From assembly GCA_024639765.1 (NCBI GenBank), contig JAHEHU010000017.1:1-46242 (forward strand): DNA of 46,242 nucleotides, given 5' to 3'. This document shows positions 697 to 18,080 of the stretch, piece after piece. Each line of letters opens with the position of its first letter. Position 1 is the first letter of the stretch. The DNA comes from Eudoraea sp. Lineage in GTDB: Bacteria; Bacteroidota; Bacteroidia; Flavobacteriales; Flavobacteriaceae. The notes under the pieces were generated by a model that was not told where the DNA came from, did not search any database, and saw nothing but the letters and a program-made list of their open reading frames with translations. Position numbers and translations under genes: made by a program.

Positions 697-1329
697 CTAA
701 AACCAACTATAGAAATAGACAAAGAATAAGAGTTGAGCGGCGTATAAATGGAGTGAAAACCGGAGATCCCCTGTTAGCTTCGTCCACTTTACCAAGGTGT
801 GGAATAAGACAGCTATCAGGAACCAGCTGATGTAGTTCTTCAATGGGGCTAGTCCATCCTCGAATTCCCAAAAATCGAATCGAGGTGCACTGTGTTCCAT
901 AAAATAATCCAAAATAAGCATGAGGGTAGCACCTAAAAGTATCTGAACTATATTGTTTTTAATTAGATGCTGAGCAATTCTAGCGCTTATAAAAGTAAGT
1001 AATGCCCAGTTTATTCCTATTAATAGTGGAACACCATCTACTTTTAAACCCAGATTGGCTCCGTAACGGTAAGATCCAAATAGGATGCCGTAATGAACCC
1101 CCAGCCATTCGGCTAACATGCCCCCAAACCATAGTAGAGCGAAAACTGCTCCTTTTCTAGCAGTATTTACTGGAAATACAATAAAGAGCAACAACGTAGA
1201 GATTATAAGATTTAAGGGGGTTTTAGACACAAACCACTCTTCAAATCCAATACTTATACCCACCAGGGCCGCAATATTGAATATCCATAGTATCCAAATG
1301 GCTAAAATATCTTTTTTAAAGCTCCTCAT
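697..1329 (-). CDS. cruF: Carotenoid 1',2'-hydratase, CruF family (DUF422)
   Basis: A 210-residue integral membrane protein with about six hydrophobic segments. CruF adds water to the 1',2' double bond of the acyclic end of gamma-carotene-type carotenoids, giving the 1'-hydroxyl of saproxanthin and myxol. Family signatures are EWLGVHYGILFGSYRYG (about residues 74-90), DGVPLLIGINW and LDYFMEHSAPRFDFWEF, with the tail segment APLKNYISWF. It is the last gene of the merR-crtI-crtB-crtZ-crtD-cruF operon, 4 bp after crtD. A heterodimer-type lycopene cyclase was considered because it is also a small membrane protein, but the motifs fit CruF. Confidence 0.82.
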   Translation of the reverse strand: MRSFKKDILAIWILWIFNIAALVGISIGFEEWFVSKTPLNLIISTLLLFIVFPVNTARKGAVFALLWFGGMLAEWLGVHYGILFGSYRYGANLGLKVDGVPLLIGINWALLTFISARIAQHLIKNNIVQILLGATLMLILDYFMEHSAPRFDFWEFEDGLAPLKNYISWFLIAVLFHTLVKWTKLTGDLRFSLHLYAAQLLFFVYFYSWF

Positions 1330-1333
1330 TACG

Positions 1334-2815
<1,482 letters not shown>

Positions 2816-3268
2816 TTATTTCTTAAAATATTTGAATGGAACCCAGAGCATTCCAAAGCATTCACCTTCTTCCTTACCCAGGTGTTTATGATGAATCTTA
2901 TGAGCACGTCTTACACCTCGCGCATACCAATTATTTGCATTCCGGAACATTTTGAAGCGCTGATGAATAAAAATATCGTGTACTAAAAAATATGTGGCAC
3001 CGTAGGCCATAATCCCGAAACCTATAGGATAACCTACCCAGAATTCACTATTGCTTGCGAGCATTATAAAGCTCATACTTACCACTGCATAAAAAATAAA
3101 AAAGGTATCATTCCTTTCAAACCAGGAATCGTGGTCTTTTTTATGATGATCCTTATGCAAACTCCATAAAAAGCCATGCATAATATATTTATGGGTAAAC
3201 CAAGCCATGAATTCCATGATACTGAAGGTGATTATAAAAACTAGTATCCAGAGAGCAATCTTCATCAT
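2816..3268 (-). CDS. crtZ: Beta-carotene 3-hydroxylase CrtZ
   Basis: Non-haem di-iron membrane hydroxylase, 150 residues, of the fatty-acid-hydroxylase-like type. The histidine clusters that bind iron are all present: HKYIMH, HKDHH, HDIFIHQRF and HKIHH. It adds the 3-hydroxyl on the beta-ring, the ring end of saproxanthin, myxol or zeaxanthin. Four hydrophobic segments surround the histidine clusters. The protein starts with two Met codons, so either may be the start. It lies 7 bp after crtB and 6 bp before crtD. Confidence 0.92.
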   Translation of the reverse strand: MMKIALWILVFIITFSIMEFMAWFTHKYIMHGFLWSLHKDHHKKDHDSWFERNDTFFIFYAVVSMSFIMLASNSEFWVGYPIGFGIMAYGATYFLVHDIFIHQRFKMFRNANNWYARGVRRAHKIHHKHLGKEEGECFGMLWVPFKYFKK

Positions 3269-3275
3269 TATTTAT

Positions 3276-4115
3276 TTATACCAAATTTAATTTATAGTTT
3301 ACATAAGAGCTAGCCAGCAAACCAAATTTTTGATAGTTGGGTACCCGTATCCTGGCATTTTTAATTTCCATGGAGGGTGTTTTTTGAAGTTTTCGCAAGA
3401 GCTGGTAATAGTATTTGTAAGCTGTATATACACCAAATTTGGCTTCATTCGGAAGTTTTACTATTCCTTCGTACCCCCTGAGAAAATCATCTTTTATTTC
3501 TTCAACTATTCTATTTTTAGAGGCTTCGTCTAACTGTAATAAGTTGGTATTTGGAAAATAGGATCTGTTCAAATATTCATAATCTGCTTTCAGGTCCCGT
3601 AAGAAATTCACTTTTTGGAAAGCCGATCCCAGGGCCATGGCCGATTGTTTTAAAGATTCATACTGTTCATCATTGCCATTCACAAAAACTCGTAAACACA
3701 TTAGTCCAACCACATCGGCTGAACCATAGATATACTCCTCAAATTCGGCCTGTGTGGCGTAAACCTGTTTTTGGAGGTCCATACGCATACTCTTCATAAA
3801 GGCCTCAACTAAATGAAGCGGAATGGAATACTGATGATAGGTGTGCTGAAAAGAATTCAGTATGGGGTTAAGGCTAATTTTATTTTCTAAACTATTATAG
3901 AGCTCCTTTTCGAAATTATTGAATAATTCTTTCTTGTTGAAATCATGAAAACTATCAACTATTTCATCTGCAAATCGCACAAAACCATAGATGTTATAAA
4001 TATCCTTTCGAATTGAAGGGGCAAGCATTTTTGTCGCCAGCGCAAAGGATGTGCTGTACGATTGAGTGACTATCTTACTGCAGTCAAATGAAACATTGTC
4101 GAAAATAGATTTCAT
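3276..4115 (-). CDS. crtB: Phytoene synthase CrtB
   Basis: All-alpha isoprenoid synthase, 279 residues, joining two geranylgeranyl diphosphates into phytoene, the first committed carotenoid step. The two Asp-rich, Mg-binding regions are visible as FADEIVDSFHDF (about residues 47-58) and FQKVNFLRDLKADYE (about 186-200). Length is normal for the family. It is 9 bp downstream of crtI in the operon. The GGPP synthase (crtE) that would feed it is not in this window. Confidence 0.93.
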   Translation of the reverse strand: MKSIFDNVSFDCSKIVTQSYSTSFALATKMLAPSIRKDIYNIYGFVRFADEIVDSFHDFNKKELFNNFEKELYNSLENKISLNPILNSFQHTYHQYSIPLHLVEAFMKSMRMDLQKQVYATQAEFEEYIYGSADVVGLMCLRVFVNGNDEQYESLKQSAMALGSAFQKVNFLRDLKADYEYLNRSYFPNTNLLQLDEASKNRIVEEIKDDFLRGYEGIVKLPNEAKFGVYTAYKYYYQLLRKLQKTPSMEIKNARIRVPNYQKFGLLASSYVNYKLNLV

Positions 4116-4124
4116 ACCTACTAA

Positions 4125-5582
4125 TTACTTTTTTTGTTCAATGAGTTCGGAAACTAATTTACCCGAAATCAAGGATGGAGGAACTCCTGGCCCCGGAACC
4201 GTTAATTGTCCTGTGAAATAGAGATCCTTTACTTTTTTGCTTTTGAGCCCTGGTCTTAGAAAAGCGGTTTGCAATAGGGTATTGGCCATTCCATACGCAT
4301 TGCCTTTATAAGAGTTGTACTGTTCCTTAAAATCATTCACGCAGAATGACTCTTTAAATATAATATTATTTTCCACTTTTTGCTTAGTACGCTCTTCCAG
4401 ACGCTTTATGATAACATCAAAATATTGCTGGCGTAAGGCAGGAGTATCTTCCAGATCTGGAGCAATAGGGACAAGAAAGAAGCCGGTTTCATGTCCTTCC
4501 GGTGCCATACTCTTATCTGTGACCGATGGAAAATTCACGTAGAACAAAGGCTCCGTAGGCCATTTGGGATCATCATAGATCTCTTCTGCATGCCTTTCAA
4601 AATCGGTATCAAAGAAAAGATTGTGATGCTCTATATCTTTCAATTTCTTATTGAAACCTACATAGAAAAGGAGGGAGGAAGGAGCAAAGGTCTTGGCATT
4701 CCAATAATCTTCTGAATATTGACGATATTCTGGATCTAGCAAGGTTTCTGAATGATGGTAGTCTGCTCCCGACAGAATAAAATCTGCCGCTATGGTCTTA
4801 TTATCAACCATAATGCCAGTAGCCCGGCCCTTTTCAACAAGAATCTTTTCAACAGCGTGGCCCGTGTGGATGTCTACGCCCAGTTCTTCGGCCAAACTTT
4901 TCATTCCTTCAATTATTTTGTACATGCCTCCTTTTGGATGCCAGGTCCCCAGTCCAAAATCTGCAAAATTCATAAAGCTGTAAAACGATGGCGTTTTACT
5001 GGGCTTTGCACCAAGGAATAGCACCGGAAATTCTAAGGTTGCTATCAATTTTGGATTTTTAAATTGTTTACGAACCTGTCCGCTGATCGTTTTAAAGAAC
5101 TGATCTACCCGCAGTGCTGTATCTTTTGTGACAAGTTCGAAAGGGGATAGCCCAGGTCTGTATACAATTTTGTTGATGGCGATGTCATAATTTTCCTGAG
5201 CTTTGGCAATAAATTTTCTCAAATACTGAGAGCTTCCAGCTTCGATCCGCTCAAATTCTGTACAGATCTTATCCATGCTGTCTCCAATGGTGATCACATC
5301 ATCTGAGAAGAAGATCTTATATGCCGGACTTAGTTTATCCAACTCGTAATAATCAGCTGTACTCTTTCCAAAGTCATTAAAAAATCGTTCAAAAATATCG
5401 GGCATCCAGTACCAACTGGGTCCAATATCAAATGTGAAGCCCTGTTTCGTTAATTGCCTGGCTCTTCCTCCTACCGTTTTGTTTTTCTCATACAGCGCTA
5501 CCTCAAAACCTGCTTTGGCAAGGTAAGAAGCTGCCGAAAGGGAAGAGAAACCAGAACCGATTATCACTACTTTTTTTTGCAT
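4125..5582 (-). CDS. crtI: Phytoene desaturase CrtI
   Basis: FAD-dependent desaturase, 485 residues, converting phytoene stepwise to lycopene. It starts with VVIIGSGFSSLSAASYLAKAG (FAD fold), followed by GGRARQLTKQGFTFDIGPSW. It ends with the CrtI signature DLYFTGQLTVPGPGVPPSL. It is the first enzyme gene after the MerR-type regulator, with a 28-bp gap. No lycopene cyclase gene is visible nearby, so the cyclase must be elsewhere, perhaps just left of the window. Confidence 0.93.
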   Translation of the reverse strand: MQKKVVIIGSGFSSLSAASYLAKAGFEVALYEKNKTVGGRARQLTKQGFTFDIGPSWYWMPDIFERFFNDFGKSTADYYELDKLSPAYKIFFSDDVITIGDSMDKICTEFERIEAGSSQYLRKFIAKAQENYDIAINKIVYRPGLSPFELVTKDTALRVDQFFKTISGQVRKQFKNPKLIATLEFPVLFLGAKPSKTPSFYSFMNFADFGLGTWHPKGGMYKIIEGMKSLAEELGVDIHTGHAVEKILVEKGRATGIMVDNKTIAADFILSGADYHHSETLLDPEYRQYSEDYWNAKTFAPSSLLFYVGFNKKLKDIEHHNLFFDTDFERHAEEIYDDPKWPTEPLFYVNFPSVTDKSMAPEGHETGFFLVPIAPDLEDTPALRQQYFDVIIKRLEERTKQKVENNIIFKESFCVNDFKEQYNSYKGNAYGMANTLLQTAFLRPGLKSKKVKDLYFTGQLTVPGPGVPPSLISGKLVSELIEQKK

Positions 5583-5610
5583 GAAGGGAGTTAATATCTG
5601 TTACTACTTT

Positions 5611-6510
5611 TTATAGAGCCGCCGAGAGATGTTCTACAGATTCAAAGGTTCTGATGTGTTCCGGAAGGCTCTTTTTTCTCAGATATTCTGTTTGCCTTCC
5701 TAAGATCCAAAGTTTTGAGTCTCCGGATGGACTTAGTATGGTATTAAAGTCCTCAATATACTGCTGCAGACTGTCTTTGGTGGGGATGACGGTGAAATAG
5801 GATAAGAAATGGATATTCTTATAATATTTATCAAGGTCTGTTAGGCTTTCCAAAGGCATAGTCTGACCAAGGTAAATGGTCTTATACCCTCTTAAGAGCA
5901 GCTCATAATTTATGAACAACAAGCCAATTTCATGAATCTCATTTTCGGGAAGGAAGAGCACAAAAACCTTATCTTGTCTTGTTGGCTCAACTGTCTGTAT
6001 CTTTTCGGTACTGGTATAGATCTTTTGTTTAATAAGATTGGTAATAAAGTGCTCGTGTGAAGGACTTATAGTATCTGTCTGCCATAATAATCCCAATTCT
6101 GTCAATAGTGGAATAAAAACTTCCCAAAAAATATCTCTGAAAGACCTGTCTGCTAATAAACTGGCATATGTTTTCTGAAATAGGGAAAGGTCAAAATTAA
6201 TCATTGAAAGTTTAAAGGCGTTGATCGCATGGTTCTTGGTACTCTTCTGAGCCACTAATTCCCTAACGACAACAGGTAATTCACTTTCGGGAATCTTAGC
6301 GATCTTGGAGATCTTATACCCACTATTATAGAGTAGCGTTATGTTCAACAGTTTTTGTAAACTTGGTAAACTGTAGGTTCGTATGTTTGTTGAGGTACGC
6401 TCCGGGGACAAGAGGTTATATCTTTTTTCCCAAATACGTATAGTATGCGCCTTAATACCAGACAGGTTCTCAAGATCTCTGATACTAAAAAACTTTTTTA
6501 CGTTGTTCAT
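5611..6510 (-). CDS. CarH/LitR-like MerR-family regulator with B12-binding domain
   Basis: A 299-residue regulator. Residues 8-75 form a MerR-type winged helix (IRDLENLSGIKAHTIRIWEKRY). The C-terminal part resembles the cobalamin-binding region of CarH. It has the exact W-x9-E-H pattern at W143...E153-H154 (helical cap) and E-x-H-x2-G at E191-I-H193-E-I-G196, where the His ligates cobalt in CarH. In Myxococcus and Thermus, CarH tetramers with adenosylcobalamin repress carotenoid genes in the dark, and light breaks the Co-C bond and releases DNA. Its position as first gene of the crt operon suggests autoregulation together with crtI-crtB-crtZ-crtD-cruF. Light response in this organism is inferred from intact motifs and context. 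Confidence 0.85.
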   Translation of the reverse strand: MNNVKKFFSIRDLENLSGIKAHTIRIWEKRYNLLSPERTSTNIRTYSLPSLQKLLNITLLYNSGYKISKIAKIPESELPVVVRELVAQKSTKNHAINAFKLSMINFDLSLFQKTYASLLADRSFRDIFWEVFIPLLTELGLLWQTDTISPSHEHFITNLIKQKIYTSTEKIQTVEPTRQDKVFVLFLPENEIHEIGLLFINYELLLRGYKTIYLGQTMPLESLTDLDKYYKNIHFLSYFTVIPTKDSLQQYIEDFNTILSPSGDSKLWILGRQTEYLRKKSLPEHIRTFESVEHLSAAL

Positions 6511-8313: not shown

Positions 8314-8763
8314 CTAAGAATCCAGGATATTCCTTAGTTCTTCACTATCCATGACGTATTCGGTTACTTTGAACACTTTTTTACGATTCTCCCTAAATGT
8401 TTTCACAAAGGCTGCAATTTCATTTTCAAGTTCTCCATGAGTAGTAAAAAAGTCCTTTTTAGTAACCTCGGAGCCCCCTTTCACTAAGGTTGAGGCCATT
8501 TCCAGATGGGAAGACACTTTTTGTTGCAACTCGTCACAGCTAAGCGCCAGTTCATGCTCTCTTTTTCTCAGGTCGGCCACGCTTTCCAGATTCTCCTTTT
8601 TAGTGATCCAAATTAGATATTTCGCTATAAGATTATGCAAAAAACGCAGGTCATCTTTGTAAAACTCGAGATCTGATTTCCAATGTTTTGCAAGAAAATA
8701 GAGTTCTTCCCACTTGGAGTTCGGAAAATCACTTTTGCCGGATTCTGTGCTCAATTTGCTCAT
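8314..8763 (-). CDS. Small helical protein of unknown function, paralogue of the protein at 16928-17344
   Basis: A 149-residue, charged, all-helical protein without signal peptide or membrane segment. I do not recognise a named domain. It resembles the 138-residue protein at 16928-17344: both have an N-terminal W..L.FLA/FMADE..F...L pattern, a central stretch of charged helices and a C-terminal helix of similar length. A Crp/Fnr-type site with a correctly spaced -7 box precedes it (8789-8831), so it probably belongs to the local stress regulon. Its ABC-exporter neighbour ends about 70 bp upstream on the same strand, with its own promoter site further up. Confidence 0.7.
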   Translation of the reverse strand: MSKLSTESGKSDFPNSKWEELYFLAKHWKSDLEFYKDDLRFLHNLIAKYLIWITKKENLESVADLRKREHELALSCDELQQKVSSHLEMASTLVKGGSEVTKKDFFTTHGELENEIAAFVKTFRENRKKVFKVTEYVMDSEELRNILDS

Positions 8764-8788: not shown

Positions 8789-8831
8789 TAAATGTACGAG
8801 GAGAATAAAACAATTCTTATGATTTATATCA
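8789..8831 (-). promoter_or_regulatory. Crp/Fnr-type activator site and -7 box for the helical protein gene
   Basis: TGAT-TTAT-ATCA at 8820-8831 fits TGAY-N4-RTCA. On the minus strand, TACATTTA (8796-8789) is a TAnnTTT box whose centre lies exactly 33 bp away, placing the palindrome near -41 as in class II Crp/Fnr promoters. It is one of five such arrangements in the island. Confidence 0.6.
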
Positions 8832-8834
8832 TAT

Positions 8835-9536
8835 TTAATCAGTTCCGGAACCGTGTGAAATGATTTTACCATCTTCCATTTCTATGATGCGATCTGTTCT
8901 TTTCGCAAAATCGTGGTCGTGTGTCACAACTAACAAGGATAAGCCTTGTTCTTCCTTGAGTTTTTTAAAGATCTGAAACACATTCTCTGCATTAAAACTA
9001 TCTAGATTGCCCGTAGGTTCATCCCCCATAAGTATGGTTGGGTTATTTATCAGCGCCCGGGCAATGGCGACACGTTGTTTTTCGCCTCCCGAGATACGGG
9101 AAGCTCGTTTAACAGCTAAATGACCAATATTGAGCATTTCTAGTTTTTCTTTCGCATCTTTCTCAATTTCCTGATATGTCTTTGCACCTAATTTTCTGGC
9201 AGGTAGCATAACATTTTCCAGAACTGTGAACTCTGACAGCAGGTAGTGGAATTGAAAAACGAAGCCAATGTGTTCGTTCCTGATCTTGGAAAGGGTTTGT
9301 TGCGAATTGCCAGTAACCAGTTCACTGTTCAAGAATAGGTGTCCTTCATAGTCAGTGTCCATGGTAGATAAGATGTAAAGCAAGGTAGATTTCCCTGAAC
9401 CAGATTTACCCATGATAGAAGCAAATTCTCCTTTTTTAACCGAAAAACTTATGTTTTTGAGTACGTGAAAATCTACCGGTTTTCGGAAGTATTTATTGAT
9501 GTTCTTAGTTTCTAGTACAGGACTCATAATTTTCAT
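8835..9536 (-). CDS. ABC transporter ATP-binding protein (LolD/MacB/DevA type)
   Basis: A 233-residue ATPase. It has Walker [10 protein letters not shown] (residues 43-51), the signature [15 protein letters not shown] and Walker [14 protein letters not shown], followed by the switch His in [11 protein letters not shown]. It belongs to the LolD/MacB/DevA family that powers FtsX-type permeases without directly pumping substrate through the bilayer. The start codon directly follows the permease stop codon. With the upstream fusion lipoprotein and permease it makes a three-gene exporter operon. A second Met at residue 4 is an alternative start. Confidence 0.9.
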
Positions 9537-10799
9537 TTAGGTACCTCTGATAATACGTACCGGATCTATACGCTTTGCTTTGTTAGAGGGGAGGTAACCT
9601 GCTATAAAGGTTGAGATCAGAGCAAATACAATTCCTATCACATAAAAGTGCAATTGAAAATTTACAGGAAAGGTCTCAATAGTGGGTAATGCCTCCGTAT
9701 CAAAGGGGAGCCGGTCTATAAAGACCGAGAGGCCAAACCCAATGAGCAAGCCCATTAATCCGCCAACCAGGCCTATGATCATGGCCTGACTCATAAAAAT
9801 TAATTGTACGTCCTTACCTGAAAAGCCTGTTGCTTTCAGAATAGCAATGTCGTTCATTTTTTCATAGATGAGCATGTTTAGGATATTGTAAATACCAAAT
9901 CCTGCAACAATGAGCAGCGTGATGGATACGGCGTACGTAATGAGGTTTCGGATATCGGTTCCTGTTTCAAATTGTGCATTGGCCGTATTGATATCCGTAG
10001 CTGTAATATTGAACTGTTTTTCGAGTATTTGGGACATGGGAAGGGCCTTCTTCAGATCGAAAAGTTTTATATTGATATCCGTGATGTAATTTGTAGCTTC
10101 TCCCAGGATCCTCTGTACGGTAGATAAATTAGCATAACTCTGAATGTTGTCTATTTCCGCGATTCCACTTTGATAGAACCCAACGATCTTCAGTGGAAAA
10201 ATATCTCCTCTAACAGTACTGATCTGTACCCTATCACCAACAGATAAGGACATTTTATCTGCCAGTCCGGCACCAAGTAAGATCCCATTATCCAAATTTT
10301 CCAGATCCTCCGGACTCCCTTCAACAATGTAATCCCTGAAGTTAGACAGGCGAACTTCCTCCATAATATCCACACCAATTAAATTACCTCCCAATTCAAT
10401 AGACCCGGACAAATAGAATATTTGAGCCCTTGCCTGCGGGGTTGCACCTTTAACTTCAGGGTCTTTTTTTAAGTAGTTCAGAATAGGTAGGGCATTGTGA
10501 ATCTTTCGCTGGCTCAGTTTGGGTTTCACAGAATGAACTACATTGAACGCACCCTCAAAGGTTTCATATAAGGCCACTGGTTGCTTTTCTGAGGGTTGAA
10601 TTTCATTGTAAAGATGAATGTGCGGGGTTTGGTTCAATATGAGGTCGTCTAACATGGCATTTAGCCCAGTCATAAAACTTACCAGTGTGATATAAGCCCC
10701 TATTCCAAAAGTGACACCAAGAGCTGCAGTGACCGTAGACTTCATCTTGGTAACAAGATGGGTCTTGGCTATATTGAGTATAACGTTCCACTGGGTCAT
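9537..10799 (-). CDS. FtsX/MacB-type ABC transporter permease (DevC-like)
   Basis: A 420-residue permease with the typical layout: one N-terminal membrane helix (about residues 18-40), a periplasmic MacB_PCD domain (about 45-275), then three C-terminal helices. The region before the last helices reads IYNILNMLIYEKMNDIAILKATGFSG, the conserved coupling segment of FtsX-type permeases. Its start overlaps the stop of the fusion protein gene by 4 bp (ATGA), showing translational coupling. Substrate cannot be predicted; relatives export lipids, lipoproteins, peptides or macrolides. Confidence 0.88.
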   Translation of the reverse strand: MTQWNVILNIAKTHLVTKMKSTVTAALGVTFGIGAYITLVSFMTGLNAMLDDLILNQTPHIHLYNEIQPSEKQPVALYETFEGAFNVVHSVKPKLSQRKIHNALPILNYLKKDPEVKGATPQARAQIFYLSGSIELGGNLIGVDIMEEVRLSNFRDYIVEGSPEDLENLDNGILLGAGLADKMSLSVGDRVQISTVRGDIFPLKIVGFYQSGIAEIDNIQSYANLSTVQRILGEATNYITDINIKLFDLKKALPMSQILEKQFNITATDINTANAQFETGTDIRNLITYAVSITLLIVAGFGIYNILNMLIYEKMNDIAILKATGFSGKDVQLIFMSQAMIIGLVGGLMGLLIGFGLSVFIDRLPFDTEALPTIETFPVNFQLHFYVIGIVFALISTFIAGYLPSNKAKRIDPVRIIRGT

Positions 10800-11902
10800 T
10801 CGGCTGGTTTTAAAAGGTAGGTTGTCCTATTGATCCCGGATAGAATTTCCACAAATTGCAGATTTTGCAAGCCAGTAGTGATTTCTATAAGCCCGCTTTC
10901 AGTCTCTACCGTATTACTCCCTATCAGATATTCTTTAGGGATTACCAGTGCATCTTCCTTTTGTTGAATTATAATATTGCCTTCGCCAGATAAACCTGGA
11001 TATAATTTCTCCGGGGGTGTAATAAATGTAGCCTCAATTTTGAACGTCTGGGAACGGTCATCTTTTTTTGGATAGATTTTATGGATCCGGGTTTCGAATA
11101 CCACCGCCGGATAGGCATCAAGGGTAATGAGCGCTTTCTGGCCATGTTGAATTTTTACAATATCTACTTCGTCTACAAGCATTTCTACCACAAATACATC
11201 CGAACTTCCTACGGAAGCTACGGGTTCCGTAGTATTAATGATCTCTCCCGGGTTCTTATACAAGGCGTAGATAGTTCCATTGATCTTACTCTCAATAACA
11301 AAATCACGCGTATTTTTCGCAGCATTTTTATACGAATTCAGGGCTTGCTTATATTTTGTTTCCAGATCATTCCTTGTCTGTTCATATGATGTGCTGAGTG
11401 CTTTCACATTATTGCCAGAAAGTTCATAGGCCAGTTTTTTATTGTCGTATTGGGTTTGTGATCCAATATTTTGCTCCCAAAGGTTTCGTTGCCTCTTAAA
11501 ATTCAAGGAGTCATTATATAGTTGAAGTTCAGCAGCTTCGATTCTTTCGCGGATTCCTTTCAATACGGCGTCATTACCTAAGAAATTTTTTTTTGCTAAC
11601 TCAAGATTCAACCTAGCATTTTCAGTATTTAATTTTGGGACCGTGTTAATGATCTGTGCTATGGCCATACCTCTTTGTACCGTATCCCCTTCTTCCAGAA
11701 GATTTTTGTCAAGAATGCCAATTACTGCAGCATAGGCCTGATAAAGACTATCTGGCTGTATTGTAACGGATGTATACACAGATTCCGTTATGGGTTTAAC
11801 CATTGGCTGAATCCTCTCCCTTTTTGTGCCACAGCCCAGCATGATCAGCATACTAAATCCAAAGAGAAATTTATAAGCCAGATTCATACGTAGAAGTTGC
11901 AT
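10796..11902 (-). CDS. HlyD-family membrane fusion lipoprotein of the ABC exporter
   Basis: A 368-residue periplasmic adaptor. The N-terminus ends in the lipobox MLGC, so it is probably an inner-membrane lipoprotein. A lipoyl/biotinyl-like half (LEEGDTVQRGMAIAQI) is followed by a long coiled-coil hairpin (about residues 100-215) and the second lipoyl half, then a beta-barrel domain (VEMLVDEVDIVKIQHGQKALI). The candidate promoter box at 11921-11928 leaves only about 15 bp of leader before the ATG at 11902. The in-frame ATG at 11887 (MNLAYKFLFGF...) gives a more normal leader and signal peptide and may be the real start. First gene of the operon. Confidence 0.87.
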   Translation of the reverse strand: MQLLRMNLAYKFLFGFSMLIMLGCGTKRERIQPMVKPITESVYTSVTIQPDSLYQAYAAVIGILDKNLLEEGDTVQRGMAIAQIINTVPKLNTENARLNLELAKKNFLGNDAVLKGIRERIEAAELQLYNDSLNFKRQRNLWEQNIGSQTQYDNKKLAYELSGNNVKALSTSYEQTRNDLETKYKQALNSYKNAAKNTRDFVIESKINGTIYALYKNPGEIINTTEPVASVGSSDVFVVEMLVDEVDIVKIQHGQKALITLDAYPAVVFETRIHKIYPKKDDRSQTFKIEATFITPPEKLYPGLSGEGNIIIQQKEDALVIPKEYLIGSNTVETESGLIEITTGLQNLQFVEILSGINRTTYLLKPAE

Positions 11903-11920
11903 ACAACAAAATAATTTTAC

Positions 11921-11963
11921 CTAAATTAGGTAAATGAAGCTAGTAGAACAATGACAATTATCA
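11921..11963 (-). promoter_or_regulatory. Crp/Fnr-type activator site and -7 box for the exporter operon
   Basis: TGAC-AATT-ATCA at 11952-11963 is followed on the minus strand by TAATTTAG (11928-11921), with centres 33 bp apart. The box differs from TAnnTTTG at one defined position. This suggests the exporter operon shares its control with hpf, trx, usp and the lipoprotein gene. Confidence 0.5.
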
Positions 11964-12099
11964 TACGGGTAGTTCGTTTAAAATACCCGCAGTAATAGCA
12001 GATTTCCATTAGGACAGACATTAGGAATGTCATAGAGGAATATGAATTGTGATAAATATGTTCTCATTCACTAAATTGCTGCATTAGGAGCTAAGAGAC

Positions 12100-12142
12100 T
12101 GATAAATGTCATGGATTTTACTTTTTAAAAATTCTATTTTTA
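12100..12142 (+). promoter_or_regulatory. Crp/Fnr-type activator site and -7 box for hpf
   Basis: TGAT-AAAT-GTCA (12100-12111) precedes TATTTTTA (12135-12142), with centres 33 bp apart. The hpf start codon is 21 bp after the box. Confidence 0.6.
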
Positions 12143-12163
12143 TCAAACATAAATTTATTTACT

Positions 12164-12463
12164 ATGACCATAAACATACAGTACCTACACATGCCCACCA
12201 GTGAGGCAATGAACGAACTTCTTACTCAAAAAATTGAAAAACTTGGAGCTAAATATGATTGGATCGTCAGCACCGATGTCTATTTTAAGTTAGACAATGA
12301 TCCTACAGGTAAGAACAAGGTATGTGAGATTAAAATAGAGGCTCCGGGTCCTCGTATCTTTGCCAAATCCAAAGAAGATAATTTTGAGAAAGCTGCTGCC
12401 GCAACTTTAAAAGATCTGGAGAGACAACTTAAAAAAAGAAAGGCTATACATTCCAAACATTGA
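12164..12463 (+). CDS. hpf: Ribosome hibernation promoting factor, short HPF/RaiA type
   Basis: A 99-residue protein of the HPF/YfiA (sigma-54 modulation) family with the beta-alpha-beta3-alpha fold. It begins MTINIQYLHMPTSEAMNELLTQKIEKL, has the basic helix DNFEKAAAATLKDLERQLKKRK at the end, and lacks the C-terminal dimerisation domain of long HPF. Such proteins bind the small-subunit decoding region and silence 70S ribosomes in stationary phase or stress. It has its own Crp/Fnr-type promoter and converges on trxA, 11 bp apart. Its place among stress genes fits a dormancy or low-oxygen response. Confidence 0.9.
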   Translation: MTINIQYLHMPTSEAMNELLTQKIEKLGAKYDWIVSTDVYFKLDNDPTGKNKVCEIKIEAPGPRIFAKSKEDNFEKAAAATLKDLERQLKKRKAIHSKH

Positions 12464-12474
12464 TCCTTACGATT

Positions 12475-12774
12475 TTACGAGTGCGATCTCAGTATTTGTA
12501 CTAGGTCTTTTTTCTGCACCAGGCCGGATTGACGCCATAATTGCTCACCTTTCTTGAAAAGCAGCAGAGTGGGCACACCGCGTACCTGAAATTTAGCTGC
12601 TAAAGATTGATTTTTGTCCACATCTATCTTTATGACCCGTATAGAATCGCCCAGCTCATCTTTAACTTCTTTGAGAATAGGTGCCAACATTTTACATGGG
12701 CCACACCAGTCAGCATAAAAATCAACCAGGACTGGTATTTCGGATGAAATGATTTCTTTAAAACTTCGCTTCAT
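12475..12774 (-). CDS. trxA: Thioredoxin
   Basis: A 99-residue thioredoxin-fold protein with the active site W23-C24-G25-P26-C27 and the cis-proline segment VRGVPTLLLF. There is no signal peptide, so it is cytoplasmic. It reduces protein disulfides. It is divergent from the universal stress protein operon. The symmetric Crp/Fnr-type site at 12823-12834 has a TAATTTAC box 33 bp away on this strand, so the same regulator may control both directions. Most genomes also carry a housekeeping thioredoxin; this one may be a stress-specific copy. Confidence 0.93.
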   Translation of the reverse strand: MKRSFKEIISSEIPVLVDFYADWCGPCKMLAPILKEVKDELGDSIRVIKIDVDKNQSLAAKFQVRGVPTLLLFKKGEQLWRQSGLVQKKDLVQILRSHS

Positions 12775-12791
12775 GTTTTTATTTATGTAGG

Positions 12792-12865
12792 GTAAATTAT
12801 AAAATAATTTAATTGTTTAACCTGACGAATATCATAAATCAGCGATGCGGTTTACGCTACCTTTA
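12792..12865. promoter_or_regulatory. Bidirectional Crp/Fnr-type promoter region between trxA and the usp operon
   Basis: One palindrome, TGAC-GAAT-ATCA (12823-12834), lies midway between two boxes. They are TACCTTTA (12858-12865, plus strand, toward usp) and TAATTTAC (12799-12792, minus strand, toward trxA). Each box centre is exactly 33 bp from the palindrome centre, which suggests one dimer activating both directions. Confidence 0.58.
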
Positions 12866-12890
12866 AAGAAGTATACTAAAATTCCTGGTC

Positions 12891-13736
12891 ATGAGAAAAA
12901 TTGTTGTGCCGACAGATTTTTCAGAAAACGCATATAATGCCTTGAAATATGCCTGCGAGATCTTTAAATACGAACGTAGTGAGATCTGTGTTATGCACGC
13001 CTTTGCGGATGAAGTATATCAATTGGGAAATATTACGGATCGGGGTATTCTCAATAAAAGGAAAGATGAACTAGAACAAAAAACGGCTGCTTCCCTGGAG
13101 GAATTAATGAAAAGGATAAAGGAGCATGCACCAAATCCAAAGCATAGGTATATTTCCATAGCGGCCTTTGGATCTCTTATAGATGAAGTTAATGATCTGG
13201 TAGAACGAGAAAACACGGATATTGTGGTCATGGGTACGCGGGGTGCGGCCAATGACAGGAGTAATACATTTGGTAGTAATACCCTCAATGTTATGAAATA
13301 TGTGCAGTGTCCGGTACTGGCCATACCGGAAGATTATGGCTATCATCCTCCTAAAGCATTGCTGTTTCCCTCCAATTACTTAATTCCGTACAAACGAAGA
13401 GAATTAAAACTTTTGTGTGAATTAACAGGGACTTTTAGGTCAACCATACATTTGTTGTATATAGATCCCATGAAGAAATTATCCCTGCGACAGGAGGATA
13501 ATCGGGATTTTTTAAAAGCCGAATTGCGCAAAGCGACATTGCTCTTTGAAACCACACCGGAAAAGGACAAAACAATGGCCATTACAAAATATATTGTGCA
13601 CCAGAACATAGATATGTTGGTCATGGTTAATACAAGGCACTCTCATTTAGAGGATTTATTAATTCCCTCTACGCTAAATAAGATAGGCCTGCATCTCAAG
13701 ATACCGTTTTTGGTACTCCAGAATTTATCACGTTAA
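12891..13736 (+). CDS. Tandem-domain universal stress protein (UspA family), first copy
   Basis: A 281-residue protein with two Usp domains. The first (residues 1-145) has the ATP-binding pattern G-x2-G-x9-G-S in GTRGAANDRSNTFGS, after VPTDFSENAYNALKYA. The second domain (about 150-281) is degenerate and lacks the glycine motif. It is the first gene of a plus-strand operon: usp, usp, ATP-cone nuclease, beta-CASP RNase, helical protein. Usp proteins of this kind are induced by low oxygen, starvation or redox stress in many bacteria. Confidence 0.9.
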   Translation: MRKIVVPTDFSENAYNALKYACEIFKYERSEICVMHAFADEVYQLGNITDRGILNKRKDELEQKTAASLEELMKRIKEHAPNPKHRYISIAAFGSLIDEVNDLVERENTDIVVMGTRGAANDRSNTFGSNTLNVMKYVQCPVLAIPEDYGYHPPKALLFPSNYLIPYKRRELKLLCELTGTFRSTIHLLYIDPMKKLSLRQEDNRDFLKAELRKATLLFETTPEKDKTMAITKYIVHQNIDMLVMVNTRHSHLEDLLIPSTLNKIGLHLKIPFLVLQNLSR

Positions 13737-13753
13737 CGTAAAAACATTTCAAA

Positions 13754-14599
13754 ATGAAAAAGATAATTCTTCCTACCGACTTTTCTGATAATGCGTATAA
13801 AGCCATCTGTTATGCCTTGAAACTTTACAGCAATACGGAATGTACATTCTATCTATTAAATACCTATACCCCTGCCATTTATCAGTCCGAATATATCCTG
13901 CATAGCCCTGGGCAAATTGGCCTTGGGGATATTTATCAATCCTATTCGCAGGAACAATTGGACAATTTGAAGAAGGAACTGGAGCAAAAATTCAAAAATC
14001 CCAAACATACTTTAATTACGCATTCTGTCTTTAATTTGCTGGTAGATGAGATAGTCGATATTGCGAATAAGGAAGAGGCAGACATCATCATCATGGGGAC
14101 GCAAGGGGCTACTGGTGCTAAAGAAATATTTATGGGATCGCATACGGTACATGTGATAAAGAAAGCCCCATGCCCTGTTTTGGCCGTGCCTGCAGGGTAC
14201 AACTATGAAGAGCCTAAAGAAATACTATTTCCCACAGACTTTGAGATAAACTATCAGCACGCTCAATTGTCTGCCTTGTTAGATCTTGCGACGTTGTATA
14301 ATTCCCGTCTAGACGTTATCCATATTTCAACCGGGAATGAACTAACAGAGAAACAGCGGAAGAACAAGGATAGGTTGCAAAACTTATTGGGTGAACGTTC
14401 ACATCGTTTTCATGATCTCCCAAGCCAGGAGATCATTGAAGGAATTAATTCCTTCAAATCAAAATCGAAGGTGAACCTATTGGTAATGATACAGAACAAG
14501 CACACTTTTATGGAACGATTATTCATAGAGCCTGTGATCAAAAAGATAGGTTTCCATGTAACCATTCCTTTCATGGTATTACCGCACCCCAATGAATAG
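13754..14599 (+). CDS. Tandem-domain universal stress protein (UspA family), second copy
   Basis: Also 281 residues and clearly a paralogue of the preceding gene, 17 bp downstream of it. Domain one holds the ATP motif GTQGATGAKEIFMGS, again an exact G-x2-G-x9-G-S. Domain two lacks it. The start IILPTDFSDNAYKAICYALKLY matches the first copy. The equal lengths and adjacency indicate tandem duplication, with enough divergence to suggest separate roles or heterodimer formation. Confidence 0.9.
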   Translation: MKKIILPTDFSDNAYKAICYALKLYSNTECTFYLLNTYTPAIYQSEYILHSPGQIGLGDIYQSYSQEQLDNLKKELEQKFKNPKHTLITHSVFNLLVDEIVDIANKEEADIIIMGTQGATGAKEIFMGSHTVHVIKKAPCPVLAVPAGYNYEEPKEILFPTDFEINYQHAQLSALLDLATLYNSRLDVIHISTGNELTEKQRKNKDRLQNLLGERSHRFHDLPSQEIIEGINSFKSKSKVNLLVMIQNKHTFMERLFIEPVIKKIGFHVTIPFMVLPHPNE

Positions 14600-14638
14600 T
14601 GGCTTTGCTATGACCTAAATTTTAAATCGAACTGCCCC

Positions 14639-15478
14639 ATGGAGAACAAGGTTATTGAGATCAGGAAATCTTCAGGGGAACGTGTTCCCTTCTCCTCCCT
14701 AAAACTTGCTGAATCTCTGCGGCATAGTGGGGCAGATGAAAGTACGATAAACACCATACTTAAAAAGGTTGAGGATGAGTTGTTCGATGGCATCAGCACC
14801 AAAGAGATCTACAATAGAGCCTATGCGATCCTAAAACGCAAGAAACCCATATTTGCCTCTAAGTATAAATTAAAAAAGGCTATTTATGAACTGGGACCTA
14901 CAGGTTTCCCTTTTGAAAAATTTATTGGCACGTTGCTCGACTTTTCAGGATACCAAACCGAGGTGGGTAAAGTTGTAAATGGAAAATGTGTTTCCCATGA
15001 GATAGATGTGCTCGCCAGGAAAAATGGCAAAACTTTCCTTATTGAATGTAAATTTCATGGGGAAGAAGGACGCAAATGTAATGTAAAAGTTCCCTTGTAC
15101 ATACACTCCAGATTCAAGGATGTCTCTGAAACACAAAATAATAGTGTAGGCTTTGAAGTTCCCGATGAAGGGTGGGTGGTTACCAATACTCGGTTTACAG
15201 AGCAAGCGAATACCTATGGCCTTTGTTCAGGTTTATACCTTCTCAGTTGGGACTACCCCAAAGATGATGGTTTGCGTAACAGAATAGATAGGTTGGCTCT
15301 GTACCCTATTACAGTTTCCACCATGTTATCACAACGTGAAAAACACTTCCTGTTGAGCAGGGATATTGTGCTTTGCAGACAATTGTATAAGGATACCTTT
15401 TATTTAGACCATTTGGGTATCTCAGAGAACAGGAAAACAAGGATCTTAAAGGAAATAGGGCAATTATGTCAATTTTGA
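14639..15478 (+). CDS. ATP-cone domain fused to a PD-(D/E)XK (Mrr-like) nuclease domain
   Basis: A 279-residue fusion. Residues 4-85 resemble the ATP-cone of ribonucleotide reductases and NrdR (VIEIRKSSGERVPFSSLKLAESL, then ISTKEIYNRAYAILKR). Residues 90-205 resemble the Mrr-type restriction endonuclease fold. The putative active site is E93, D123 (in SHEIDVLARKNGK) and E136-C-K138 (in TFLIECKFH). The last 55 residues are helical and may form a small binding domain. I infer a nucleotide-sensing nuclease; the DNA or RNA target is unknown. It sits between usp genes and a beta-CASP RNase in one operon, so it is more likely a stress nuclease than part of a restriction system. No methyltransferase is nearby. 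Confidence 0.8.
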   Translation: MENKVIEIRKSSGERVPFSSLKLAESLRHSGADESTINTILKKVEDELFDGISTKEIYNRAYAILKRKKPIFASKYKLKKAIYELGPTGFPFEKFIGTLLDFSGYQTEVGKVVNGKCVSHEIDVLARKNGKTFLIECKFHGEEGRKCNVKVPLYIHSRFKDVSETQNNSVGFEVPDEGWVVTNTRFTEQANTYGLCSGLYLLSWDYPKDDGLRNRIDRLALYPITVSTMLSQREKHFLLSRDIVLCRQLYKDTFYLDHLGISENRKTRILKEIGQLCQF

Positions 15479-15494
15479 AAAGGTGATCAATGCC

Positions 15495-16856
15495 ATGGTA
15501 AAAATTCAATTCTTAGGAGCTGCTCACACGGTTACAGGATCTAAATTTTATTTGGAAACCGAGGGACTTAATTTGCTTATAGATTGTGGAATGTTCCAGG
15601 GCCTTAAAGCACTGAGAGAACAGAACTGGCAGCCCTTACCCATTGATGTTTCCTCCATAGATATGGTGATTCTTACCCATGGCCATCTGGATCATACAGG
15701 CTATTTACCCAGATTGCTAAAACAGGGATTCAAAGGAAAGATCATGGGAACCGAACCAACACTTGCCATTGCTGGCATCATCTTGAGAGATAGTGCAAAA
15801 ATTCATGAAGAGGAAGCAGAAAAAGCCAACAAGGAGGGGTATTCCAAACATAGTCCGGCTTTACCTTTTTATACCCTGGAAGAAGCTGAGAAGGCCATTG
15901 ATCTTTTTCAGGCAGTAGAACCAGATCAATGGATCAATGTATCGGAAGGGGTGCAACTACGATTTTCATATAATGGACATATTCTTGGAGCTACTTATAT
16001 CACCTTGAAGATTCATGAGAAGGACTATGTTTTTTCTGGCGATATAGGCAGGCCACGGGATTTACTATTAATGGAGCCTAAAAGACCACAGTGGGCAGAT
16101 TATCTTTTTCTGGAAAGCACCTATGGGAATAAATTGCACCCGGATGAGGACGTGGAATCCATACTTATTGAGTTAGTACATAAGACAATTAGGGAACAAG
16201 GTATCTTACTGATTCCTTCTTTTGCTGTTGAACGCCTTCAATTACTGATGGTTATCCTATGGCGGCTATATCAGAAAAACCGAATTCCGAATATCCCTAT
16301 TTTCATTGACAGTCCTATGGGGACAGACGTTTTAGAACTTTTTGAACGTTTTCCAAACTGGCATAAGATGCCACTTGCAGATCTTAACGCTATGTGTGCT
16401 CATATGACCCTTATCAGTTCTTATAGAGACACGTGGAAGACCATTGATGATCCCAGGCCTAAAATTGTGATTGCGGGCAGCGGAATGGTCTCTGGAGGAA
16501 GAATTCTCACCTATTTAAAACAAAAGGTAGACCTAATTACGACCACTGTTTTAATAGTGGGATACCAGGCCGAAGGTACGCGGGGCAGAAAGCTCCTGGA
16601 AGGAGCCACTGATATAAGAATATTTGGAAAAGATCACGAAGTAAAGGCCTCAGTGGTTCATTTGGAAAGTCTCTCTGCGCACGCAGATCAGGCCGAACTC
16701 ATGAACTGGCTAGGGGATGTTAAGAATGTTCCCGAAAATACCTTTTTGATCCACGGTGAACCGGAAGCATTGGAGGGCTTCAAGAGCATGATAGAAAAAA
16801 CCCTGAAGTGGCGTGTAACAATTCCGGACCTATTGGATACTGTGCAGCTTTTTTAA
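15495..16856 (+). CDS. Beta-CASP metallo-beta-lactamase-fold ribonuclease
   Basis: A 453-residue protein of the CPSF/Ysh1-like beta-CASP family, which cleaves RNA endo- and/or exonucleolytically. It carries the zinc motif H62-G-H64-L-D66-H67 and further family landmarks in NGHILGATY, FSGDIGRP, LESTYGNKLH, GSGMVSGGRI and SLSAHADQAEL, ending in the RMMBL-type region. I chose the ATG at 15495 (MVKIQFLGAAHTVTGSK), where homologues begin, rather than the in-frame GTG at 15483. As part of the stress operon it may degrade or mature RNA during dormancy, alongside HPF. Confidence 0.9.
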   Translation: MVKIQFLGAAHTVTGSKFYLETEGLNLLIDCGMFQGLKALREQNWQPLPIDVSSIDMVILTHGHLDHTGYLPRLLKQGFKGKIMGTEPTLAIAGIILRDSAKIHEEEAEKANKEGYSKHSPALPFYTLEEAEKAIDLFQAVEPDQWINVSEGVQLRFSYNGHILGATYITLKIHEKDYVFSGDIGRPRDLLLMEPKRPQWADYLFLESTYGNKLHPDEDVESILIELVHKTIREQGILLIPSFAVERLQLLMVILWRLYQKNRIPNIPIFIDSPMGTDVLELFERFPNWHKMPLADLNAMCAHMTLISSYRDTWKTIDDPRPKIVIAGSGMVSGGRILTYLKQKVDLITTTVLIVGYQAEGTRGRKLLEGATDIRIFGKDHEVKASVVHLESLSAHADQAELMNWLGDVKNVPENTFLIHGEPEALEGFKSMIEKTLKWRVTIPDLLDTVQLF

Positions 16857-16927
16857 AAAGAAAGCGGACCATATATAGAATACAATTAAAAGAATATGAA
16901 CAGATAATAGTTAAAAAAAGAACCCCG

Positions 16928-17344
16928 ATGGAAAAACAACTAGTGCTACGGAAAATGGGAATAGAAGCATTACATCAAGAATCAAAAAAGTGGATCTCGC
17001 ATCTTTTTTTTATGGCAGACGAGATCGTATTCTTCGATAATCTCTTGGATTCCTATGTTTTTGAACCAGATACCCCGATATTATTTGAAGACCTTCAAAA
17101 ATTTCAGGGGAGATTGATGCAGTCTAAAGAACGTTGCTCAAAAATTATTGGAGAAATTGTTGAACATGAAAATAAACTTGGTGGGCTAATAGAGATTTTA
17201 AATAGCACTCTGGACCAGGCCTATCAAACCAAACACCAACAATACAGAAAAGAAGTAGAGGACTGTCTTGATGATTTCAGAAGGTTGAAGTCTAACCTTT
17301 ATGTCTATGCGGCGGCAATTCTAAAAAAAAGGCACAAGAAGTAA
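16928..17344 (+). CDS. Small helical protein of unknown function, paralogue of the protein at 8314-8763
   Basis: A 138-residue, all-helical, soluble-looking protein rich in Lys, Glu and Gln. A longer open frame reaches back to 16808 but overlaps the RNase gene. The ATG at 16928 (MEKQLVLRKMGIEAL) is the natural start. It shares its helical pattern with the protein at 8314-8763 (a W..L.FMADE..F...L region near the N-terminus and similarly placed helices). It is the last gene of the usp operon, 71 bp after the RNase. No function is known to me. Confidence 0.7.
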   Translation: MEKQLVLRKMGIEALHQESKKWISHLFFMADEIVFFDNLLDSYVFEPDTPILFEDLQKFQGRLMQSKERCSKIIGEIVEHENKLGGLIEILNSTLDQAYQTKHQQYRKEVEDCLDDFRRLKSNLYVYAAAILKKRHKK

Positions 17345-17358
17345 TAATAGTGCCTAGC

Positions 17359-17401
17359 TGATAATTGTCATATGAAATTAATCTTATGACAAGTATCTTG
17401 T
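17359..17401 (+). promoter_or_regulatory. Crp/Fnr-type activator site and -7 box for the lipoprotein gene
   Basis: TGAT-AATT-GTCA (17359-17370) is followed by TATCTTGT (17394-17401), a partial TAnnTT box, with centres 33 bp apart. A second, imperfect site, TGAC-AAGT-ATCT (17387-17398), overlaps this box. Confidence 0.48.
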
Positions 17402-17441: not shown

Positions 17442-18080
17442 ATGAAAACCTTTATTTGGACCTTTTTTATACTACTACTGGCCTGTTCCGACACAGAAAT
17501 TGTCAGTAGTTGGAAGAATCCTGATATTGTTCTTTTCGATGCCTACAAAGTACTGGTGGTTGGGATGACCCCCAATGCTGATGCCAGATTGGAATTTGAG
17601 ACCAGGATGACAGATAAATTTATACAGAGTGGTGTTGAAGCCATGAGGAGTATAGATCTATTTGATGTAGCTTTTACCACCTCAGTGCGAACAGATCGAG
17701 AATTGGATGAAGTGGAAGAACGACTGCTTGCAAAAGATTTTGATGCCATTCTCTTTACGAAAATATTAGGTTCCGAGAGCCGGCAAACCCTGAGTAAGAA
17801 ACTTTCGGAGTTGGACAGGAACAACCGCAGATTTAAGGACGATTATTTAAGTCATCAAAACATCTATTATGAAGATGAATACTATGAACAATTCACGGTT
17901 TATTTTGTAGAAACTGCCTTGTATTGTATTTGCGTTGATAAGGAGCGAGATCTTATTTGGAGAGGGGTTATAGAGGTTTCCGATCCTATAGAGTCAGAGG
18001 ATACCATTGAAGAATACATAGATCTTGTGGTATCTACCATGCAAAATGAGGATCTTATTTTCAGAAAAGAAAAACAATAA
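17442..18080 (+). CDS. Putative lipoprotein of unknown function (possibly DUF4136-like)
   Basis: A 212-residue protein with a lipoprotein signal peptide (MKTFIWTFFILLLACSDTE; lipobox LLAC). The mature start SSWKNPDIVLFDAYKVLVVGM and the alternating strand and helix pattern recall DUF4136-like periplasmic proteins, but I am not certain. The middle is strongly acidic and tyrosine-rich (YYEDEYYEQF). It is probably anchored in the outer or inner membrane facing the periplasm. It has its own Crp/Fnr-type promoter and converges with the cardiolipin synthase gene, suggesting an envelope role within the stress response. Confidence 0.7.
   Translation: MKTFIWTFFILLLACSDTEIVSSWKNPDIVLFDAYKVLVVGMTPNADARLEFETRMTDKFIQSGVEAMRSIDLFDVAFTTSVRTDRELDEVEERLLAKDFDAILFTKILGSESRQTLSKKLSELDRNNRRFKDDYLSHQNIYYEDEYYEQFTVYFVETALYCICVDKERDLIWRGVIEVSDPIESEDTIEEYIDLVVSTMQNEDLIFRKEKQ

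Follow-up and report, generated by a model that had tools for sequence, protein, structure and literature searches.

RESULTS

Spaced palindromes and -7 boxes in a Eudoraea contig

Positions 1 to 46,242 of contig JAHEHU010000017.1 from Eudoraea sp. (GCA_024639765.1; 3.19 Mb in 225 contigs) were analyzed as one stretch, here called the window, for a recurrent intergenic palindrome and the genes behind it. Pfam matches in the window identify an Hpf/S30AE ribosome hibernation factor (hpf), a thioredoxin (trxA), two Usps, an ATP-cone joined to Mrr_cat, and a beta-CASP nuclease; a predicted helical protein, an exporter, and a lipoprotein-like protein are encoded alongside them. The five intergenic TGAY-N4-RTCA palindromes reported in the initial annotation are all present in the sequence (Table 1). 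We consider it quite likely that they serve a genome-wide Crp/Fnr-type regulon as class II activator sites, with two regulators and an array of small RNAs (sRNAs) probably involved. Sequence gives the site and its fixed position directly, as well as how enriched and conserved it is and which genes it targets; activation, binding, and the signal we infer from these.

The distance from palindrome to TAnnTT box is identical for all six directed boxes, and the palindrome between trxA and the usp operon serves both directions, as had been claimed. The claimed distance of 33 bp needs correction: it measures 32.0 bp center to center (a gap of 23 bp) and reaches 33 only when taken to the center of the 8-mer TAnnTTTG. 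Boxes end 19–42 nt upstream of the ATG. The window holds 10 palindromes against 3.9 expected, and none of 100 shuffles reached 10. No box lies at 32 bp from the other five (one at 16405 and four at 32.3–33.6 kb); for the palindrome at 33614 there is one at 31 bp. TAnnTT occurs at 0.0138 per position and strand in the 13 intergenic stretches of the window, site-bearing ones included. The probability of boxes at 6 of the 10 directed positions is about 1.4e-9, a post hoc value because the spacing was chosen in the initial annotation.

Enrichment in the genome and in relatives

A genome-wide scan of the kind proposed initially, run for TGAYN4RTCA-N23-TANNTT, returned 50 exact matches against one for the same pattern reversed. 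The regulon had been called local and of Crp/Fnr type; the second part is supported and the first is too narrow, as only six of the 50 matches are inside the window. In the site-bearing stretches of this genome together with the window, 48 boxes occur at a gap of 23 bp and five or fewer at every other gap from 8 to 44. A background set of contigs, from which the site-bearing contigs C73, C133, and C143 had been swapped out, was used for background only, its zero at gap 23 being uninformative for that reason. An open reading frame (ORF) of at least 70 aa starts within 300 bp of 45 of the 50 sites. Two of the remaining five are at contig ends and three resemble sRNA genes. One match, at C205:8868 inside the histidine kinase gene described below, is probably due to chance.

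The same arrangement was found in 80 loci from other Flavobacteriaceae, both named strains and metagenome-assembled genomes, 79 of which carry at least one site. Across gaps 8 to 44, gap 23 accounts for 443 boxes in these loci and each of the 36 others for 7–23. Scrambling the palindrome in three ways left 0, 1, and 1 boxes at gap 23. A wider survey of 246 genomes of the order yielded 2068 occurrences of the pattern and 492 of the control.

The consensus of 49 sites from this genome (one of the 50 was too close to a contig end) is aa[AC]TGAtatataTCAT, with the longer form aa[AC]TGAtatataTCATttt ... TAntTTt. The T directly after the dyad is 88–93% conserved and its mirror position holds A or C, which makes the promoter-side flank asymmetric. 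A regulon of CRP (cAMP), with the site TGTGA-N6-TCACA, was ruled out by the motif, which has no TG before TGA. Crp/Fnr activators at class II promoters are centered at -41.5. The same center follows for the sites described here from the 32-bp spacing, constant in six of six cases, and the place of the sigma-A -7 box TAnnTTTG at -12 to -5 in the available text on Flavobacterium psychrophilum (PMC9723704), which agrees with the class II position near -41 given in the initial annotation.

Table 1. Sites, -7 boxes, and target genes in the window, and loci of the sRNA family
Feature	Position	Strand	Details
Crp/Fnr-type site TGATATAAATCA (as read on -)	8820-8831	-	Directed at helical-protein gene; full site in 5/6 homologs
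TAnnTT (-7) box, helical-protein gene	8791-8796	-	32 bp from site center; box end to ATG 27 nt
149-aa predicted helical protein, target	8314-8763	-	No Pfam match
Site TGATAATTGTCA (as read on -)	11952-11963	-	Directed at exporter operon
TAnnTT (-7) box, exporter operon	11923-11928	-	Box end to ATG 20 nt
Exporter target operon	8835-11902	-	Membrane-fusion-type protein 10796-11902, permease 9537-10799, ABC ATPase 8835-9536; names by reading only
Site TGATAAATGTCA	12100-12111	+	Directed at hpf; full site in 9/13 homologs
TAnnTT (-7) box, hpf	12135-12140	+	Box end to ATG 23 nt
Short Hpf/S30AE ribosome hibernation factor, target	12164-12463	+	Pfam PF02482
Divergent shared site TGACGAATATCA	12823-12834	.	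trxA (-) and usp operon (+)
TAnnTT (-7) box, trxA	12794-12799	-	Box end to ATG 19 nt
TAnnTT (-7) box, usp operon	12858-12863	+	Box end to ATG 27 nt
Thioredoxin (trxA), target	12475-12774	-	Pfam PF00085
usp target operon	12891-16856	+	Usp 12891-13736, Usp 13754-14599, ATP-cone + Mrr_cat 14639-15478, beta-CASP MBL nuclease 15483-16856; Pfam; operon from spacing
Site TGATAATTGTCA	17359-17370	+	Directed at lipoprotein-like gene; full site in 17/61 homologs
TAnnTT (-7) box, lipoprotein-like gene	17394-17399	+	Box end to ATG 42 nt
212-aa protein read as lipoprotein, target	17442-18080	+	No Pfam match
Covarying sRNA copies, often tandem, behind -41.5 site	L035:1352-2103 (C143), L036:1736-2010 (C205), L227:5172-5861, L236:3142-3771, L242:4003-4475, L244:3507-4121		

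Target genes and conservation of their sites

Sites outside the window precede ccoS followed by a fused ccoNO, hemN, PFOR, the alpha subunit of a 2-oxoacid:acceptor oxidoreductase, and a YfhL-type ferredoxin, all above NCBIfam cut-offs. Several Usps and an Hsp20-like protein are also encoded behind sites there, the best model for the latter scoring below its NCBIfam cut-off. First genes named by reading only include FtsH, a glycogen-synthase-like protein, PPDK, a zinc ADH, and a mechanosensitive-channel-like (MscS) protein, the last of which heads an operon with a histidine kinase and a response regulator described below. These genes belong to respiration at low oxygen, to pyruvate use of the fermentation type, and to dormancy-like stress. 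Support for the suggested link to low oxygen comes only from the target genes, those outside the window (cbb3, hemN, and PFOR among them) being classic low-oxygen genes.

Conservation was counted in the 80 loci by searching for a full site (palindrome and spaced box) within 300 bp upstream of each homolog. Homologs with less than 150 bp of upstream sequence or less than 60% of the query matched were excluded, and paralogs were given to the best-matching query; start codons were chosen by script, both here and in the counts of upstream palindromes, kinase neighbors, and usp sites below. A full site precedes 64 of 66 homologs of the first usp, 33 of 33 of hsp20, 5 of 5 of ccoS, and none of two of hemN. 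Homologs of the helical protein at 8.3 kb have it in five of six cases, and those of a second helical protein at 16.9 kb, whose copy in the window has no site of its own, in 32 of 54. Of 16 genomes searched, 14 have cbb3, and in 12 of these a full site lies upstream of the operon. The initial annotation had linked ribosome hibernation, redox, nuclease, and export genes. The first two are retained, with full sites before 9 of 13 hpf and 17 of 33 trxA homologs; export is weak (see below), and the nuclease has no site of its own (0 of 77 homologs of the MBL nuclease, 4 of 82 of the ATP-cone protein). The second Usp of the window also has no site of its own, and this gene and the nuclease would therefore be operon-internal. 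The fusion of an ATP-cone to an Mrr-type nuclease domain (window 14639-15478, in the usp operon) occurs in 51 of 246 genomes at E ≤ 1e-20.

Two candidate regulators

Four proteins in this genome match PF00027 at E ≤ 0.001. An ExxxR recognition helix is present in two of them, a 229-aa FNR-like protein (TESCIR) and a 358-aa response regulator with receiver, cNMP-binding, and HTH_Crp domains by Pfam (TETAIR), referred to as REC-Crp. The other two (on C175 and C34), with the helices SRVVISR and SRVVVSR, were set aside, as they do not share the recognition Glu and Arg common to FNR-like and REC-Crp. The Crp/Fnr assignment of the initial annotation is supported by the -41.5 position, the low-oxygen targets, these two ExxxR proteins, and a conserved palindrome before the fnr-like gene.

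The FNR-like protein matches PF00027 and PF13545 above cut-off. Its gene lies between ccoI-like/cco genes and a usp, and the usp, directly downstream, has a site. At E ≤ 1e-30, 110 of 246 genomes have a homolog. The recognition residues E192 and R196 are kept in at least 90% of 30 homologs and in 12 of 12 further ones. Cysteines C5, C8, C54, and C107 are all present in 30 of 30 homologs and in 9 of the 12 further, mostly more distant ones; all four are absent from the other three. That the four occur together or are missing together suggests a single cluster site, and they are probable ligands of an oxygen-labile Fe-S cluster. When the protein is aligned to a solved FNR-type regulator, C107 falls on the beta-roll cysteine and C5/C8 on the N-terminal pair. 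The gene itself looks to be autoregulated: of 30 loci, 28 have a TGAYN4RTCA palindrome in the 160 bp before it, and 10 of the 12 further, mostly more distant loci have one in the preceding 300 bp. The cysteine-less homologs (L270, L271, and L272; family f5) keep the recognition Glu/Arg and a palindrome 18–19 bp before the gene, so that in this family the signal has possibly changed and the DNA site has not.

REC-Crp is an equally serious candidate. Its homologs were found in 30 of 246 genomes (E ≤ 1e-40, best 8 candidates scored per genome), with 50–61% identity in a close clade and 39–48% in a wider one, and in 38 of the 80 loci, which places them no more than 10 kb from the marker gene of the usp operon. 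All 29 loci with sequence upstream have a gene of histidine-kinase type, recognized by a C-terminal motif, that ends no more than 68 bp before REC-Crp or overlaps it. The neighboring kinase in this genome is a PAS histidine kinase by Pfam, with PAS matches in residues 11-125. Its first 345 residues matched one histidine kinase among solved structures (E = 0.00036) and none that was FixL-like. The order of PAS histidine kinase and REC-cNMP-HTH_Crp fusion at L036:7464-10276 is kept in the relatives examined.

Genomes that differ in these two proteins bear on which of them reads the site. G102 and G167 have REC-Crp and no fnr-like or cbb3 match, and both keep the motif (26 vs 5 and 29 vs 0, control second), with sites before three of the four Usps examined in each. 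Another 17 genomes of the family, which have fnr-like and lack a REC-Crp match, keep the motif as well (267 vs 61). These two sets suggest, short of proof, that each regulator alone can use the motif. Three other genomes without an fnr-like match (G039, G236, and G241) keep the cbb3 site and encode a short Crp protein with the helix ETVIR.

A probable structured sRNA family behind the site

No ORF follows three sites in this genome (C143:1352, C143:1636, and C205:1736); the roughly 230 nt behind each close with a strong hairpin and a T run. A scan of C143 (L035), C205 (L036), and the window against Rfam at gathering scores matched only one tRNA, in the window. Nine ORF-less, site-driven predicted transcripts of relatives share one structure, from which a model, R1, was built; these transcripts had been selected for following a site. 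R1 gave 20 matches at E ≤ 7e-9 in 90 sources, several of them in tandem and one at C143:1965-2103 in this genome, where C143 has two copies (58.8 and 27.4 bits). The copies at C143:1352 and C205:1736 are missed by R1 and resemble R1-matched copies weakly by DNA alignment. Weak minus-strand matches were disregarded.

On the 20 matches, 21 of 31 pairs have double changes, 93.6% of cells pair, and none of 500 shuffles reached the covariation score, which is favored by an alignment fitted to the model and uncontrolled for relatedness. The promoter count for R1, 13 of 27, is partly circular because the training set was chosen by site. The one real test comes from seven further genomes, where the promoter was not used in finding the copies: an exact site lies 85–127 bp before the first copy in seven of eight loci, the one without being a second locus of G303. 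Over their length, none of the 13 matches in these genomes exceeds about 80% identity to any of the nine training sequences. Some genomes have 2–4 tandem copies, weak matches counted. Under strict filters R1 matched only 8 of 100 genera, indicating a family that is patchy or diverged. The family is a probable non-coding structured RNA behind an FNR-type promoter and a predicted arm of the regulon.

Other features of the window and genome

A carotenoid-synthesis-like cluster (by reading) at 697-6510 of the window lies beside a MerR-type regulator (5611-6510) with a possible B12-binding part, an arrangement that we presume to resemble light-controlled LitR/CarH loci. A LigD-polymerase-like gene (by reading) is present in two closely similar copies with near-identical sites, at L035:8190-9382 (C143) and L049:3599 (C179). 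These represent either a duplication or a mixture of strains; contamination of the assembly is given as 4.2%.

DISCUSSION

Weighing the class II reading

We propose that a Crp/Fnr dimer would bind TGAY-N4-RTCA at -41.5, beside sigma-A RNA polymerase on the Bacteroidota -7 box TAnnTTTG, and would switch on low-oxygen and energy-stress genes. The site would probably be used by two proteins, the FNR-like protein beside the cbb3 operon and REC-Crp, the latter probably phosphorylated by the adjoining PAS histidine kinase. A tandem array of structured sRNAs is probably under the same control.

Several observations weigh against this model or parts of it. Most of the 80 comparative loci were retrieved through a gene of the window's own usp operon. 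Only one of seven homologs of the first exporter gene has a full site and three of seven have any palindrome, making the exporter the weakest target of the window, and the lipoprotein homologs have a full site in 17 of 61 cases. The ligands of the canonical FNR cluster are three N-terminal cysteines and one in the beta-roll; in the FNR-like protein the third N-terminal cysteine is replaced by Asn14 and C54 is invariant instead. Its score against the NCBIfam model Fnr PRK11161, still its best match, is 106.4 bits with a cut-off of 228. The palindrome upstream of fnr-like genes is joined by TAnnTT at gap 23 in only 2 of 30 cases, so this gene may be repressed rather than activated. Where REC-Crp or fnr-like is called absent, only the 8 to 11 best candidates of the genome were scored. 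Other ExxxR Crp proteins occur in all five family genomes without an fnr-like match, with the helices ESLSR (G102 and G167), ETLSR (G167), ETVIR (G039, G236, and G241), and EVITR (G241). REC-Crp is therefore not proven as the reader of the motif in these genomes, and it is not the sole ExxxR Crp protein of G102 and G167, which have the ESLSR and ETLSR proteins.

A division into two regulons with one motif, REC-Crp activating the usp/hpf/trxA island and the FNR-like protein serving cbb3, hemN, and itself, is a real possibility, though one that we would not call probable. It would account for REC-Crp homologs encoded near the usp-operon marker in 38 of 80 loci and for sited Usps in G102 and G167, where fnr-like and cbb3 matches are missing, although both genomes hold further ExxxR Crp proteins. 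Five genomes with FNR only (G143, G176, G186, G181, and G048) likewise have a sited cbb3 and no window-like Usp at E ≤ 1e-25. The median motif excess in the family is 21 with a REC-Crp match (n = 23) and 14 without (n = 17), a comparison that ignores relatedness and genome size. However, G201 has FNR and no REC-Crp match, yet its Usp has a full site, and in the Eudoraea genome itself a usp with a site directly follows the fnr-like gene. The usp survey covered loci for 30 of 43 usp matches, and 20 of the 30 have a full site.

The signal could be nitric oxide, sensed by a regulator like DNR, NnrR, or HcpR, rather than oxygen, which we judge unlikely. The half-site TGAY fits several Crp/Fnr branches, and HcpR is implicated in the answer of Bacteroides to nitrosative stress in the part of the report available (PMC13370916). 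Against this, the targets are cbb3, hemN, and PFOR, and an Fe-S cluster is suggested by the four cysteines conserved together. In F. psychrophilum, cbb3 and heme genes are raised when oxygen is limited, as far as the accessible text describes (PMC9723704). No hcp, nor, or nrf gene was recognized among the first genes, which were read by eye with no search aimed at these three.

It is very improbable that the palindrome is an extended promoter element bound by a sigma factor. Its rigid spacing to the -7 box and the conserved T after the dyad would suit such an element, but a dyad with N4 spacing is typical of Crp/Fnr, and the palindrome stands without a box before the fnr-like gene in most loci examined. 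The motif excess is also smaller in genomes where neither regulator was found (353 vs 179; 131 genomes, many of them small) than in those with one (1715 vs 313; 115 genomes). Chance alignment of five AT-rich palindromes, for which the five boxless palindromes of the window and a spacing picked after looking might speak, is ruled out by the 50 matches against one in the genome and the 443 boxes against 7–23 in other species.

We tentatively put forward, as plausible if short of probable, a broader form of the class II reading: one code in Flavobacteriaceae, read by an FNR-like protein with a new four-cysteine arrangement and by a phosphorelay-driven REC-Crp, that would also drive a tandem, previously undescribed sRNA family as a Bacteroidota counterpart of FnrS. 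In our view the initial observation was right and its interpretation essentially so: the system is a class II regulon of FNR-like type, unusual in the cysteine pattern of its regulator, with phosphorelay control as a possible partner and sRNAs as a probable further arm.

Significance and comparison with known systems

Searches of open-access literature, which most subscription journals lie outside, gave no description of a master regulator of the oxygen response, or of this regulon, in Flavobacteriaceae among the titles, opening lines of abstracts, and passages covered; one paper, seen in part, hypothesized carbon sensing by a Crp/Fnr homolog of Flavobacteriales (PMC8510549). A precise promoter code, two candidate genes, and conserved targets make the question testable in culturable genera such as Maribacter and Aquimarina, and the sRNA family suggests that the low-oxygen response includes a non-coding arm.

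The FNR regulon of Escherichia coli uses TTGAT-N4-ATCAA at class II promoters. The system described here shares with it the Crp/Fnr fold, the Glu and Arg of the recognition helix, the N4 TGAY dyad, the center at -41.5, low-oxygen targets, and four jointly conserved cysteines. It differs in that the outer T of TTGAT is not conserved (A or C), the third N-terminal cysteine is missing and C54 invariant, the promoter has the Bacteroidota -7 box, the targets include an island of Usp, Hsp20-like, and Hpf genes, and the site is perhaps shared with REC-Crp.

In the FixL-FixJ-FixK cascade of rhizobia, a PAS histidine kinase and a receiver lead to a Crp/Fnr output, with a cbb3-type oxidase among the targets. 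Here too, a PAS kinase, a receiver, and a Crp/Fnr output are encoded together and cbb3 is among the targets; unlike that cascade, the receiver and Crp domains are one protein, with one transcription step fewer, and the kinase has no FixL-like match. The REC-Crp fusion would compress FixLJ-FixK into one protein.

FnrS is an sRNA of Enterobacteria behind an FNR-type site, the arrangement that the sRNA family here, known from sequence, repeats in another phylum with a structure that appears different from that of FnrS and with 2–4 tandem copies in some genomes. Rfp18 of F. psychrophilum is likewise a structured flavobacterial sRNA (PMC9723704). HcpR and SnoA of Bacteroides thetaiotaomicron also combine a Crp/Fnr-family regulator with a regulatory RNA in the stress defense of a member of the Bacteroidota; in the accessible part of that report (PMC13370916), SnoA runs antisense to the hcp promoter at a level independent of HcpR, whereas the RNA described here follows a class II site.

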